Source: a bacterium (lineage in GTDB: Bacteria; Patescibacteriota; Minisyncoccia; Moranbacterales; GWC2-37-73). From it: 50,502 nt of DNA. Positions 7,388 to 50,502 of the stretch are shown here, piece after piece; position 1 is the first letter of the stretch; each line of letters begins with the position of its first letter. Under the pieces are notes generated by a model. The model was not told the origin of the DNA, made no database searches, and saw nothing but the letters and a program-made list of their open reading frames with translations. The translations under genes and the position numbers were made by a program. The stretch covers positions 1 to 50,502 of the forward strand of contig QKEW01000018.1 of the NCBI GenBank assembly GCA_003251635.1, in the 5' to 3' direction.

Positions 7388-9055
7388 TTATATATCTTCT
7401 GGCGGCTGAGCGACTCTCAATAATTCCTCCAGAGTTGTGACGCCTTTCTTGACTTTCTCCACTCCGTCTTCAAAAAGAGTCCGTGATCCATGCTGACGAG
7501 CCAGCGCCCATATCTGATCAGCCGAAGGGTTTTTCAATATCAAATCTCTTATTTCATGATTGACTCGAATTAGTTCAAAAATAGCCGTTCTTCCATGATA
7601 GCCGGTGTAGTTGCAATTTTCGCAGCCTTTTCCTTGATACAAAGTAAGTTCTTGATCTCCAAAATATTTTTCCAAGTTAAGATTTTCTCGATTATGCTCG
7701 ACCACCCTAACTGAACGGCTGTATCGACATTTCTCGCAAATCTTTCTGACCAATCTTTGGGCTACCAACAATTCCAAAGTGGAAGCCAACAAAAACGGCT
7801 CAACCTGCATATCCAAAAGACGCGGAATAGCGGTGGGGGCATCATTGGCGTGAAAACTGGAAAATAGCAAATGACCGGTCAATGCCGCATTGATTCCTAT
7901 CTCGGCCGTTTCCAAATCCCGAATTTCTCCCACTAAAATTATATCCGGATCCTGGCGAACAATAGAGCGCAGACCCTTGGCAAAAGTAAGATCGGTTTGC
8001 GGATTGACTTGAATTTGATTGGCACCAGACAACTGATATTCAACCGGGTCTTCAATGGTGGTAACATTAACTTCGGGCTTATTAAGTTGTTTCAATAGCG
8101 CATAGAGTGTGGTGGTTTTTCCACTGCCAGTTGGCCCGGTAACTAAAATCATACCGAAAGGTTTGCGACTGGCTTCCTTTAAATTCTTGTGATCATTTTC
8201 AGAAAGTCCCAAATCGGACATGGCAAAATCTTTGACATATTCAGTTAGGATACGAATGACTATCTTTTCTCCATTTAGTGTGGGCACAATGGAAACACGC
8301 ATATCGATACGCCGATCATTTCTTAACATTCTCATTGAACCATCTTGAGCGGAAAAATGATCATCAATTCTCAAGCGAGATTGGACCTTGATTCGATTAA
8401 CAATATTTTCATAGTGTTCCTTGGGAATCTTTCCAGCTTCTCGCAATAATCCATCCACCCGGAAGCGAACTACGATGTCACGCTCACGTGGCTCGAAATG
8501 AACATCTGAGGAACGGAAAATCAAAGCATCATCGATGATTTCCTCAATTATTTCAGGCGCTATTTTGCTGCTGTCTTCAATGATCTTAGCAAAACGAGTG
8601 TCCAACGGCTTTCGATAACGGACCAGCATTTCATCAATATCCTGAGACAGAGAGTAGGCTATCTCGATTTTCTTTGAAGAAAAAAATTTTTCTAAGGCGG
8701 GCAACAAATCTTTTTGCTGAGGATCATCCGTGGTTATGACGATTTTATTGTCATCTTCCGCAAAAATTACAACCCTAAATTGCTTAGCCAACTCTTCAGG
8801 TATCCGCCCTATCTGCTCCAAAGTAGGTACATTGGAATTAAGATCGGCATATTGAATTCCAAAATTTTCAGCCACCGCTTGACCAAAAAGATCTTGGTTT
8901 ATTATTTCTTGAGAAAAAAGATAATCCAAAAAAGACCTCCCGGGAGATTTGGCCAACACTTCCTCGGCCAAGTGAGCATCTTCCTCGGAAATATAATTCC
9001 CTTTTAGGAGAATTTCTTTAATTTGTTCATCACTAAGAGATCTTTGTTGTGTCAT
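7388..9055 (-). CDS. pilB: Type IV pilus assembly ATPase PilB/GspE
   Basis: A 555-residue secretion ATPase. A GspE N-terminal domain (about 1-150) precedes the ATPase core with Walker A GPTGSGKTTTLY (307-318), Asp box TTIEDPVEY, Walker B-type DIILVGEIRD (371-380) and His box LFSSFHANDAP. A zinc-binding tetracysteine (Cys440, Cys443, Cys478, Cys481) is present, a feature of extension ATPases (PilB/GspE) and missing from PilT. It powers pilus extension from the cytoplasmic face together with PilC. No PilT retraction ATPase is in the window. Confidence 0.95.
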   Translation of the reverse strand: MTQQRSLSDEQIKEILLKGNYISEEDAHLAEEVLAKSPGRSFLDYLFSQEIINQDLFGQAVAENFGIQYADLNSNVPTLEQIGRIPEELAKQFRVVIFAEDDNKIVITTDDPQQKDLLPALEKFFSSKKIEIAYSLSQDIDEMLVRYRKPLDTRFAKIIEDSSKIAPEIIEEIIDDALIFRSSDVHFEPRERDIVVRFRVDGLLREAGKIPKEHYENIVNRIKVQSRLRIDDHFSAQDGSMRMLRNDRRIDMRVSIVPTLNGEKIVIRILTEYVKDFAMSDLGLSENDHKNLKEASRKPFGMILVTGPTGSGKTTTLYALLKQLNKPEVNVTTIEDPVEYQLSGANQIQVNPQTDLTFAKGLRSIVRQDPDIILVGEIRDLETAEIGINAALTGHLLFSSFHANDAPTAIPRLLDMQVEPFLLASTLELLVAQRLVRKICEKCRYSRSVRVVEHNRENLNLEKYFGDQELTLYQGKGCENCNYTGYHGRTAIFELIRVNHEIRDLILKNPSADQIWALARQHGSRTLFEDGVEKVKKGVTTLEELLRVAQPPEDI

Positions 9056-12470: not shown

Positions 12471-12577
12471 TGCGTCGTGAGGCCTGCCTGCCGTCAGGCA
12501 GGGATTCTCCTTCGGACCTGGGCACTGAAAAAGCAAAATCATTTGCTTTTTCCGGGCGCGCCCTTCGAATCCCTTTA
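12471..12577 (-). pseudogene. Broken copy of the tRNA-Lys 3' end carrying palindromic insertions
   Basis: Plus-strand bases 12471-12482 repeat the last bases of tRNA-Lys (TGCGTCGTGAGG). The copy is then interrupted by a 20-base palindrome with arms CCTGCCTG/CAGGCAGG (12483-12502), resumes with GATTC (12503-12507), and is interrupted again by about 60 bases with a perfect 11-base-arm hairpin (GAAAAAGCAAA 12527-12537, TTTGCTTTTTC 12542-12552). It ends with GAATCCC. GGATTC and GAATCC bracket the second insert as an outer stem. The copy lacks the encoded CCA. It lies between tRNA-Lys and the terminator, so it should be transcribed as tRNA trailer. Confidence 0.7.
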
Positions 12578-12589
12578 ATTAAGAGAAAT

Positions 12590-12665
12590 TGGTGCGTCGT
12601 GAGGGATTCGAACCCCCGACCATCAGCTTAAAAGGCTGTTGCTCTACCGACTGAGCTAACGACGC
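12590..12665 (-). tRNA. tRNA-Lys (anticodon TTT)
   Basis: The cloverleaf is complete: acceptor GCGTCGT/ACGACGC, D-arm AGCTCAGTCGGTAGAGC, anticodon loop CTTTTAA with TTT at 34-36, T-arm CGGGGGTTCGAATCCC. Discriminator A is followed by an encoded CCA (12590-12592), unlike the other two tRNAs here. A partial copy with insertions lies directly downstream. Confidence 0.97.
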
Positions 12666-48150: not shown

Positions 48151-48191
48151 ACCCTAAGGCTAATTTTGATCATTCATTTTATTTGAAGTTT

Positions 48192-49907
48192 ATGTCCAAT
48201 ACTCTTTATCGCAAATATCGACCACAAAAGTTTTCCGATATCATAGGTCAAAACCATATTACCCAGACTCTTTCCAATGCCATCACTCATCAACGCATCG
48301 GTCATGCCTACCTTTTTACCGGTCCACGAGGTACCGGCAAGACTTCCATGGCTCGTCTTTTTGCCAAAGCCATCAACTGCACTGATTCGAAAAAAGGAGA
48401 AGCTTGTTTGAAATGTGAAAACTGCCAAAACATTTCCCAGGGTAAATCTTTGGATGTTTTTGAAATTGACGCCGCCTCCAACACTGGAGTGGAAAACATT
48501 CGAGAACTTCGCGAGACCATCAAGCTGCCGCCTTCTCAAGCTAAATACAAAGTGTATATCATTGATGAGGTTCACATGCTTTCAACCGGAGCCTTTAATG
48601 CTCTTTTGAAAACTTTGGAAGAACCGCCTACTCACGCCGTTTTCATTTTAGCTACCACTGAAATCCACAAGGTACCGCAAACCATTCTTTCCCGTTGCCA
48701 ACGTTTTGATTTCGGTCGAATTTCACTTGAAAACATCATTAAAAAACTTTCCCTCATAGCTTCAAGCGAAAAAATCGAAATCGAAAAAGAGGCTCTGGAG
48801 GCCATTGCCATTGCCGCTGAAGGCGGAATGCGAGACGCCGAATCGCTTTTGGAACAAATCATCTCATTGGAAGATAAAAAAATCACCGCCCAAGAGGTAG
48901 CTGAAATTCTCGGGACCACCAGCAATCAAGCCATTGAAAAATTTGCCCAATTAGTCCTAGAAAAGAAAACCAAAAAATCCCTAGAACTGATTTCATCTCT
49001 TTCTAATGATGGTTTTGATTTGGAGGTTTTTCACAAAGCTGTACTAAATCACCTTCGACAGCTGCTTCTTTTAAGTATTGATTTGGATTTAGCTAGAAAC
49101 TTCTCTTTCGAGTTAACCGGGGAGCAATTGAAAAAAATGCAAAAAACCGCTCAAAAAAATTCAACCCAAGAAATTTTAGCGGCCCTAAATATTTTCTCCG
49201 AATTGCAAGGAAAAATTAAAACTGCTTTTATACCTCAATTACCTCTGGAAATGGCTATCGTCAAAATAACCCAATCAATAAATCCGGTTCCGACCGAGCC
49301 AACAACCGGGGGTCAAAAAATCACTGTCCCAATCCCAAGCCAAGCTCAATCAATAGAGGAATTATCATCTCCGACTCAGACTAAAAATATAGTCAGCGCA
49401 ACCTCGCCAGAAAATCTTCAAAAAATTCAACCAGCCTCAGATGAAATCAGCTCAAATTCTGAACCACAAATGAGCATAGCAAAAGTAAGTTTTTCTCAGC
49501 CTCAAGTAGAAAAAATTTGGCCACAGGCTTGCAAACAAATAATCGAAACCAATCACTCCTTGGCCGCCCTTCTTCCCCTCTCAATGCCACAGGATGTTCA
49601 AGACGGCTACTTGACCATTGTTACCCGTTATGGATTCTATAAAGACAAACTTAATGAAAATCAAAATCGATTGACAGTCGAATCGGTTTTTGGTAATCTT
49701 TTAGGGTCAAAAGTGAAATTGAGAGTTTTAACCGAAGATGAATCGGGAGTTAAGGTTCCGCTATCTTCAACTTCCAAAGTGCCGTCTTTCGGAACAAAAC
49801 CAGCTGAAATATCGGCTGAAAAAAAAGCGCCAGAGACTGAAAAGCAAACCAGCTCCCTCTTGGAAGGTGCGGCCAATTTGCTCGGCGGACAAATCGTGCA
49901 AGAATAA
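48192..49907 (+). CDS. dnaX: DNA polymerase III gamma/tau subunit
   Basis: A 571-residue protein from the ATG at 48192 (MSNTLYRKYRPQKFSDIIGQ); a TTG 9 bases upstream is not needed. Walker A GPRGTGKTS (44-52), zinc cysteines 63, 72, 75, 78, Walker B IIDEVHML, SRC motif LSRCQRFDF. Residues past about 360 are Ser/Thr/Pro/Gln-rich with a small folded end (AALLPLSMPQDVQDGYLTIV), probably tau-like. It is the ATPase of the clamp loader. Confidence 0.95.
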   Translation: MSNTLYRKYRPQKFSDIIGQNHITQTLSNAITHQRIGHAYLFTGPRGTGKTSMARLFAKAINCTDSKKGEACLKCENCQNISQGKSLDVFEIDAASNTGVENIRELRETIKLPPSQAKYKVYIIDEVHMLSTGAFNALLKTLEEPPTHAVFILATTEIHKVPQTILSRCQRFDFGRISLENIIKKLSLIASSEKIEIEKEALEAIAIAAEGGMRDAESLLEQIISLEDKKITAQEVAEILGTTSNQAIEKFAQLVLEKKTKKSLELISSLSNDGFDLEVFHKAVLNHLRQLLLLSIDLDLARNFSFELTGEQLKKMQKTAQKNSTQEILAALNIFSELQGKIKTAFIPQLPLEMAIVKITQSINPVPTEPTTGGQKITVPIPSQAQSIEELSSPTQTKNIVSATSPENLQKIQPASDEISSNSEPQMSIAKVSFSQPQVEKIWPQACKQIIETNHSLAALLPLSMPQDVQDGYLTIVTRYGFYKDKLNENQNRLTVESVFGNLLGSKVKLRVLTEDESGVKVPLSSTSKVPSFGTKPAEISAEKKAPETEKQTSSLLEGAANLLGGQIVQE

Positions 49908-49928
49908 TTTTTTTCGAAAAAGATATAT

Positions 49929-50099
49929 TGGGGATTAGCCCCTGGCCGCGCCCGAGGCGCAGCCGCTCTCAGGCAAGCGGCTCGTCCGCCGTAGGCTTGC
50001 CGAAGGCGGATAAGGCACCAGGTTTTCCCGATCATCCGATCGGACTCCGGATCCTGGCATGCGGGGGTTTACATCCCGTCGCATGACGGGACGAATCCC
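49929..50099 (+). pseudogene. Broken copy of tRNA-Gln interrupted by four GC-rich insertions
   Basis: Pieces of tRNA-Gln occur in order: TGGGGATTAGCC (49929-49940), AAGCGG, TAAGGCACCAGGTTTT, TCCTGGCATGCGGGGGTT, CGAATCCC (50092-50099). Between them lie insertions of about 34, 30, 25 and 22 bases, nearly all GC-rich and self-complementary (GCGCC/GGCGC, GGCAAGC/GCTTGCC, CCCGTC/GACGGG). The anticodon is split and the 3' acceptor half is missing, so the copy cannot work as a tRNA. The intact gene begins 31 bases downstream. Even the preceding ATATAT is duplicated. Confidence 0.85.
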
Positions 50100-50130
50100 A
50101 AAAAACAAAAATGATTTCAAAATAATATAT

Positions 50131-50202
50131 TGGGGATTAGCCAAGCGGTAAGGCACCAGGTTTTGGTCCTGGCATGCGGGGGTTCGAATCCCTCATCCCC
50201 AA
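50131..50202 (+). tRNA. tRNA-Gln (anticodon TTG)
   Basis: 72 bases. Acceptor TGGGGAT/ATCCCCA, anticodon stem CCAGG/CCTGG with loop TTTTGGT (TTG), T-arm CGGGGGTTCGAATCCCTC. No full CCA encoded. It follows its broken copy and is followed by a terminator-like stem. Confidence 0.96.
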
Positions 50203-50210
50203 CATAAAGA

Positions 50211-50358: not shown

Positions 50359-50502
50359 GTGTACTTCCCCCATTTCTTTAGACACTAACCTTGTTATCTA
50401 AATTGTATTGAATTTGGGCATTTAGAGCAAACTGCTGAGGTGGCATTTTCAGGGCAGTATGAATTCTAGTGTTGTTGTATTTCCAAACAGTTCGGTAAAT
50501 TT
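50359..50502. repeat. Terminal inverted repeat, right copy (IS end)
   Basis: Reverse complement of 1-144. Flank differs from the left copy from 50358 leftwards. Confidence 0.9.
50378..50500 (-). CDS. Transposase C-terminal fragment (IS3/IS481-type), 5' end off the window
   Basis: Same 40 codons as at 3-125, on the minus strand. The TAA is at 50378-50380. The missing N-terminal part lies beyond the window edge. Confidence 0.85.
   Translation of the reverse strand: MYRTVWKYNNTRIHTALKMPPQQFALNAQIQYNLDNKVSV

Follow-up and report, generated by a model that had tools for sequence, protein, structure and literature searches.

A hairpin-interrupted tRNA-Gln copy as a probable remnant of a homing-type GIY-YIG element associated with tRNA genes

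A broken copy of tRNA-Gln, split by four GC-rich inserts, lies beside an intact tRNA-Gln gene in a 50,502-nt stretch of bacterial DNA, called the window here. Inserts 1 and 2 have homologues, and insert 3 shares its core with an insert, in tRNA copies that are linked to genes for small GIY-YIG proteins. The most plausible reading is therefore that the broken copy, duplication included, belonged to a GIY-YIG element. Since the locus has no nuclease gene and only a 31-nt spacer, it was classified as a scar or non-autonomous form and not as an intact element. Most probably the window harbours a GIY-YIG-less remnant, or a non-autonomous form, of a selfish element of the homing type that targets tRNA genes.

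The interrupted tRNA-Gln copy of the window

The relevant features of the window are the following.

48183..49907, plus strand: ORF, presumably dnaX (DNA polymerase III gamma/tau), named from its sequence; conserved neighbour on the upstream side of tRNA-Gln(TTG), serving as marker of the orthologous site
49924..49940, plus strand: piece 1, leader TATAT and TGGGGATTAGCC (49929-49940); acceptor 5' strand and D-stem 5' strand; identical to 50126-50142
49941..49974, plus strand: insert 1, 34 nt, 82% GC, at the 5' edge of the D-loop
49975..49980, plus strand: piece 2, AAGCGG, D-loop
49981..50010, plus strand: insert 2, 30 nt, D-loop; TCCGCC...GGCGGA hairpin
50011..50026, plus strand: piece 3, TAAGGCACCAGGTTTT; D-stem 3' strand, anticodon stem 5' strand and part of the loop
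50027..50051, plus strand: insert 3, 22-25 nt, inside the anticodon; hairpin z -4.1
50052..50069, plus strand: piece 4, TCCTGGCATGCGGGGGTT; anticodon stem 3' strand, variable region and T-stem 5' strand
50070..50091, plus strand: insert 4, 22 nt, T-loop; hairpin TCCCGTC-GCAT-GACGGGA, z -4.4
50092..50099, plus strand: piece 5, CGAATCCC; end of the copy
50100..50130, plus strand: AT-rich spacer, 31 nt; intact elements have a GIY-YIG ORF here (compare L068 8012-8263, and L237)
50131..50203, plus strand: intact tRNA-Gln, anticodon TTG (ARAGORN; Rfam RF00005, 64.5 bits)
12480..12505, minus strand: second scar, palindrome CCTGCCTGCCGTCAGGCAGG inside a tRNA-Lys 3' fragment, downstream of the intact tRNA-Lys at 12590-12665 (minus strand)

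Gapped alignment showed that 49929-50099 is a collinear, near-identical copy of tRNA-Gln(TTG) with its 3' end cut off. The five pieces follow the order of the intact gene, with one discrepancy near insert 3, and the ordered broken copy with four GC-rich inserts described in an earlier note on this DNA was thereby borne out. The alignment score of broken versus intact tRNA-Gln is 35.8, compared to a maximum of 20 for control alignments of tRNAs with the flanks of other tRNA genes, which rules out chance. Missing from the copy is TCATCCCCAA, the remaining T-stem 3' strand and the acceptor 3' strand. The longest unbroken identity between the two copies in this alignment is ~18 nt.

GC contents of the inserts range from 59 to 82%, against ~40% for the background, and all four map to tRNA hairpin loops, two to the D-loop, one to the anticodon and one to the T-loop, a placement on which the earlier note is silent. 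The same note had called them mostly self-complementary, which is true of inserts 3 and 4, both strong hairpins; inserts 1 and 2 are by themselves only weakly so (z -0.6 and -1.4). Insert 1 and the AAGCGG piece together do fold into a hairpin. These 6 nt may by themselves be a chance match; the identical split is retained in the relatives G025, G023 and G005. Insert 4 splits the T-loop sequence between GGTT and CGAATC, of which the other strand matches RAWTSGAAC, the motif of the phage nuclease SegB (see below).

Neither a GIY-YIG ORF nor a recognizable GIY-YIG remnant was found at the window locus, the 31-nt spacer included. A group I intron was rejected as a candidate, as Rfam detected tRNAs only over the window and no group I intron core in the inserts of 22-34 nt. 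Likely introns occur elsewhere in this genome (G000): at C16 82199-82930 the anticodon loops of two tRNA genes, one of them Phe-like, are apparently interrupted by group I introns.

The contig ends 299 nt downstream of the intact gene, in a repeat, which might point to an assembly or binning artefact. Positions 1-144 and 50359-50502 form a perfect 144-nt inverted repeat at the contig ends, resembling by eye the 3' end of an IS3/IS481-type transposase gene, and the assembly therefore probably broke at insertion sequence copies. The same tRNA-Arg(TCG) with near-identical flanks is found at the ends of two other contigs (C4 13624-13698 and C12 8266-8340), suggesting a repeat that broke the assembly there. 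Against an artefact stand a second locus in the genome and homologous structures in many independent assemblies, including those of the isolates Algoriphagus and Leeuwenhoekiella, which makes this explanation very unlikely, to the point of being negligible.

GIY-YIG genes and broken tRNA copies in the same genome and its relatives

The genome of the window was covered by searches and by the stretches that surround its tRNA genes. The second tRNA-Gln locus (contig C5, anticodon CTG) was located by searching the genome with the broken copy. Two broken 5' copies of tRNA-Gln are followed here by an ORF encoding an 83-aa GIY-YIG protein (Pfam PF01541, E 8e-18) and then by the intact tRNA, into which the ORF runs, its stop codon TAG lying within the tRNA. 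Both broken copies carry a homologue of insert 1 from the D-loop of the window copy (L068 ~7870-7910 and ~7930-7976). Insert 1 also has a homologue in G015, at the same tRNA position. Insert 2 shows 82% identity to a sequence of G025 (E 1.1e-8) and has homologues at the same position, adjoining a GIY-YIG gene, in G025, G023 and G005. The core of insert 3, CCCGATCATCCGATCGG, is shared with the T-loop insert of a GIY-YIG-linked copy in G045. The inserts thus recur at other tRNA copies, a possibility that the earlier note had raised. It had also dismissed a simple att duplicate and a single transposon, and rightly so, as both are ruled out by the five pieces with their several junctions and by the homologous inserts elsewhere. 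The closest match in layout is L237, a tRNA-Ser locus of Patescibacteria with hairpins in all three loops. It is truncated at the same T-loop point as the window copy, and a GIY-YIG gene and the intact tRNA follow.

The flanks of the 39 tRNA genes of G000 were each compared with their own tRNA, with the flanks of other tRNAs as the control. Seven loci exceeded the 99th percentile, while 0.4 were expected (Met, Gln-TTG, Trp, Ser-GGA, Gln-CTG, Leu-TAG and Ser-TGA). Clear broken copies lie beside at least five further tRNA genes of the genome, in addition to both tRNA-Gln loci. Copies of Thr-CGT, Lys, Val-TAC and Ile were seen by eye and are weak in the flank test. At the Met and Ser-TGA loci the intact tRNA is enclosed by an interrupted outer copy, between inverted arms. 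The intact tRNA-Met lies in the D-loop of the outer one (C9 27545-27760; L006 about 1464-1680), with the arms CCCCGTTGCACTTTA and TAAAGTGCAACGGGG, and the anticodon loop of the outer copy also has a hairpin. At Ser-TGA it is the anticodon loop of the outer tRNA-Ser that holds the intact gene (C2 14430-14760; L027, reverse strand), with the arms CCCCGTA...AAAG and CTTTCTTACGGGG. On contig C6 (120188-120569; L070) a GIY-YIG gene is located after tRNA-Tyr and directly before tRNA-Thr(GGT). It is preceded by a long inverted repeat and not by a tRNA fragment, an arrangement repeated in G015 (L150). Three tightly packed tRNA genes at C18 27142-27404, two with doubtful anticodon calls, are possibly atypical or mobile.

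The site of the window copy was followed across relatives by means of dnaX, homologues of which are present in 56 of 57 genomes, with tRNA-Gln(TTG) downstream in most relatives inspected. The site is empty in G002, G003, G006, G012, G016 and others, and occupied by a GIY-YIG gene in G005, G010, G020, G023 and G053. A scar without such a gene, a hairpin-plugged copy, is found in G014 as well as in the window. Immediately downstream of the site, G004 has a GIY-YIG reading frame that is broken. The site thus displays the presence/absence polymorphism of a homing element. From the orthologous and paralogous loci we infer that the GIY-YIG gene was lost from the window locus; alternatively, the window may hold a non-autonomous form that was acted on in trans. 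An ORF with a helix-turn-helix-like start is located in the dnaX-tRNA-Gln gap of G047 (L196) and might represent an invader of a different class.

Small GIY-YIG genes are common in 47 Moranbacteria-like relatives. In a sample of 93, 44 have a tRNA gene no more than 400 nt away, in all 44 cases on the same strand. In 29 of the 93 the tRNA starts within 100 nt downstream of the domain, for which the chance is ~0.2% each (P ~4e-54), with the qualification that the elements are mutually related and the counts not fully independent. A fragment of the same tRNA is found upstream of the GIY-YIG gene in 18-19 of these 29 cases, exceeding shuffles, and the upstream fragments that were inspected have a GC-rich hairpin in a loop. 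Two layouts occur. In type A a broken 5' tRNA with hairpin is followed by the GIY-YIG gene and the intact tRNA. Type B is its mirror image, with the intact tRNA first, then the GIY-YIG gene and a hairpin-plugged 3' fragment (G005, G053, L164, L214 and L223). Some tRNA-adjacent GIY-YIG genes have no tRNA fragment (e.g. at Thr and Ala).

The encoded proteins are minimal (~80-95 aa), with no obvious separate DNA-binding domain. They have a GIY-YIG catalytic domain with its conserved Tyr, Gly, Arg, His and Glu; Y5, Y16, G18, R26, H30 and E62 are invariant across 10 aligned proteins. Their phylogenetic tree sorts by tRNA isotype, with 11 changes compared to a mean of 19.1 after shuffling and 0 of 200 shuffles as low; the strength of this result is moderate, given a short alignment of few columns and a tree in which many forks stay open. 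Several clades are without tRNA linkage; among their genes that were checked, Rfam placed two just upstream of tmRNA and one inside 16S rRNA. The two tmRNA cases are small genes from two relatives (L165 1204-1968 and L112 1501-2266), suggesting that the family may target ssrA as well. The third is a small gene ~100 nt into the 16S rRNA gene of G034 (L102 1399-2660).

A single-protein search of named genomes yielded 45 loci. Most of these have a same-strand tRNA nearby together with a partial copy of it, located either across the gene or past the tRNA itself. The architecture occurs in Bacteroidota isolates, among which the two genera named above, and in Ignavibacteria, Omnitrophota, Peregrinibacteria and other CPR. 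Phage records contained distant relatives only of the GIY-YIG protein.

It had been proposed that the broken copy is a decoy, shielding the intact tRNA gene from insertion; a tRNA-targeting nuclease could be diverted in the same way. The copy does adjoin the intact gene, and amplification of the SegB type can raise tRNA dosage versus tRNA-cutting defences (PMC13096335). However, most copies lack the 3' half and have plugged loops, making them poor mimics of a target or a tRNA, and they are accounted for by their linkage to GIY-YIG genes or the scars of these. The decoy explanation is unsupported and highly improbable.

Loop hairpins and the recurrent palindrome

Automatic extraction gave 57 inserts, of which 48 lie at tRNA hairpin loops while 37% of junctions were expected there; for three Gln inserts the D-loop assignment relies on an equivalent shift by one base, and the set contains related elements, so that the events are not independent. 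Folding with z < -2 was found for 46 of the 57. The insert position is constant within a nuclease/tRNA lineage, for example between positions 35 and 36 in Glu (anticodon loop), 17 and 18 in Leu-TAG, and 33 and 34 in Cys. A double hairpin with paired changes occupies one and the same anticodon-loop position in Glu elements from four genomes and three families. Across the six sequences of the Glu/Val double hairpin all cells pair and three pairs are changed on both sides, a score reached in 3 of 500 shuffles.

A 20-nt palindrome, CCTGCCTGCCGGCAGGCAGG, is dispersed in many relatives, where most sampled sites lie outside tRNAs. At the cross-phylum loci it is often set cleanly into a tRNA loop. Across genomes the number of palindromes correlates only weakly with the number of GIY-YIG genes (Spearman 0.36, P 0.02), too weakly to be decisive.

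The dispersal of this palindrome, mostly away from tRNAs, could mean that ordinary tRNA duplicates were hit independently by loop-preferring, REP-like palindromes and that the GIY-YIG neighbours are unrelated. As a working tRNA could not be interrupted without killing the cell, hits would be seen in duplicates alone. This passive decoration is improbable. In the genome of the window three of the four copies of CCTGCCTGCCGGCAGGCAGG lie within tRNA fragments, the linkage of GIY-YIG genes to tRNAs and their sorting by isotype are far beyond chance, and the Glu double hairpin is held at one position in all three families. The comparison in the earlier note with Rickettsia palindromic elements, as hits on a passive duplicate, did not stand either, since inserts 1 and 2 are homologous to GIY-YIG-linked ones at the same positions and insert 3 shares its core with one; decoration of this kind alone was downgraded as a candidate once the GIY-YIG link had been found. 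Rickettsia palindromic elements are palindromic inserts within genes. Unlike the inserts described here, which are 15-44 nt and lie in GIY-YIG-linked tRNA remnants, they are longer and reside in functional genes. With REP and BIME sequences the inserts have in common that they are short, GC-rich, dispersed palindromes. REP super-families are marked by a tag, either GTAG or CGTC, the former type being linked to Y1 transposases (PMC3733652). In contrast, inspection by eye of the insert list showed that neither tag is present in CCTGCCTGCCGGCAGGCAGG and most inserts, and a Y1 transposase (PF01797), found in 20 of 39 genomes, has no match in G000. A REP/RAYT system was rejected on these grounds.

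Two further explanations are compatible with the proposed GIY-YIG element and concern its hairpins. The plugged copy may be a functional RNA leader, transcribed from the tRNA promoter, that resists processing and regulates or stabilizes the GIY-YIG mRNA. In type A the distance from the end of the plugged 5' copy to the GIY-YIG start codon is between a few and some tens of nt, helices are preserved through paired changes, and the whole window copy folds better than its shuffles (z -3.2). Hairpins near the start codon are reported for T4 segB, mobE and seg43(25) (PMC2988022). In type B, however, the plugged fragment lies downstream of the ORF, and the window has no ORF to regulate; a leader role is somewhat unlikely.

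The hairpins may also break the homology between the tRNA copies and so protect the element from recombinational deletion. Efficient RecA-dependent recombination is usually taken to need more identity than the ~18 nt that is the longest shared run in the window. Glu elements, on the other hand, retain 35 identical nt, and this role is considered unlikely.

Proposed element, known systems and meaning

In its intact form the proposed element would consist of a partial target tRNA with its loops plugged by GC-rich hairpins, a GIY-YIG gene of ~80-95 aa and a complete tRNA of the same isotype. The first step is hypothesized to be a cut by the putative nuclease within the loop-coding part of a tRNA gene that is not yet occupied, after which repair off the occupied allele would bring in the hairpin, the nuclease gene and the full tRNA. 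As a full tRNA would be copied in, the host would retain a working tRNA. The broken copy would retain the native leader, and the former tRNA sequence would cease to be an uninterrupted target. Later loss of the nuclease gene would leave the hairpin-plugged pieces beside the intact gene, as in the window. The hairpins may serve to destroy the target in the remnant, to regulate the nuclease mRNA or to hinder recombination between the copies. Resistance of the intact tRNA by sequence change was considered and is excluded at G014, where the tRNA beside the scar is identical to that at the empty sites of G012 and G016. Self-resistance, if the intact tRNA is the target, would therefore depend on the flanks, or else cutting would be inefficient.

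The best comparison is with SegB of phages T4 and T6, a free-standing GIY-YIG homing endonuclease in a tRNA cluster that cuts tRNA genes at the T-loop motif RAWTSGAAC (PMC13096335) and drives tandem amplification of tRNA and its own gene (PMC13096335; PMC2988022). As with SegB, a GIY-YIG gene is found among tRNA genes, and T-loop inserts split the sequence of the SegB motif. Unlike SegB, the genes described here are bacterial and chromosomal, encode putative nucleases of ~80-95 aa, are sorted by isotype and lie between a plugged partial and an intact tRNA. The accessible portions of the SegB accounts (PMC13096335; PMC2988022) do not describe hairpin-plugged tRNA remnants. Homing endonucleases such as the LAGLIDADG enzyme I-ShaI invade CPR rRNA genes as introns (PMC11270868). 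Both cases involve homing endonucleases in stable RNA genes, and the genome studied here has the two apparent intron-bearing tRNAs mentioned above. The rRNA cases are intron-like insertions within a single gene, whereas the present loci combine a duplicated tRNA, a remnant that is not a functional gene and inserts with no intron motif. Integrative elements that use tRNA att sites also leave a partial tRNA duplicate beside an intact tRNA. They differ from the present loci, which have no integrase between the copies and no large island, show several internal junctions and, in the intact form, have a nuclease gene of ~250 bp separating the copies.

A literature search, with most subscription papers and preprints outside its reach, returned no description of hairpin-blocked tRNA remnants, of palindrome-tRNA pairing, of CCTGCCTGCCGGCAGGCAGG or of GIY-YIG/tRNA associations in Patescibacteria or Bacteroidetes. 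Tentatively, the loci could represent an undescribed class of elements that spans phyla, in which a minimal GIY-YIG nuclease and an essential, co-mobilized palindrome act together: the nuclease would cut loops of stable RNA genes, the invaded copy would be sealed and a replacement tRNA provided.

Such elements offer a possible explanation for many of the very small GIY-YIG genes found in CPR bacteria and Bacteroidota, which would be selfish and live off tRNA genes, and would also account for hairpin-plugged tRNA fragments that adjoin intact tRNAs. A partial tRNA near an intact one need not be an att site, nor a pseudogene left by simple duplication. At one orthologous site the life cycle could be reconstructed from empty to occupied to scar, and the many nuclease/tRNA pairs offer directly testable specificity.
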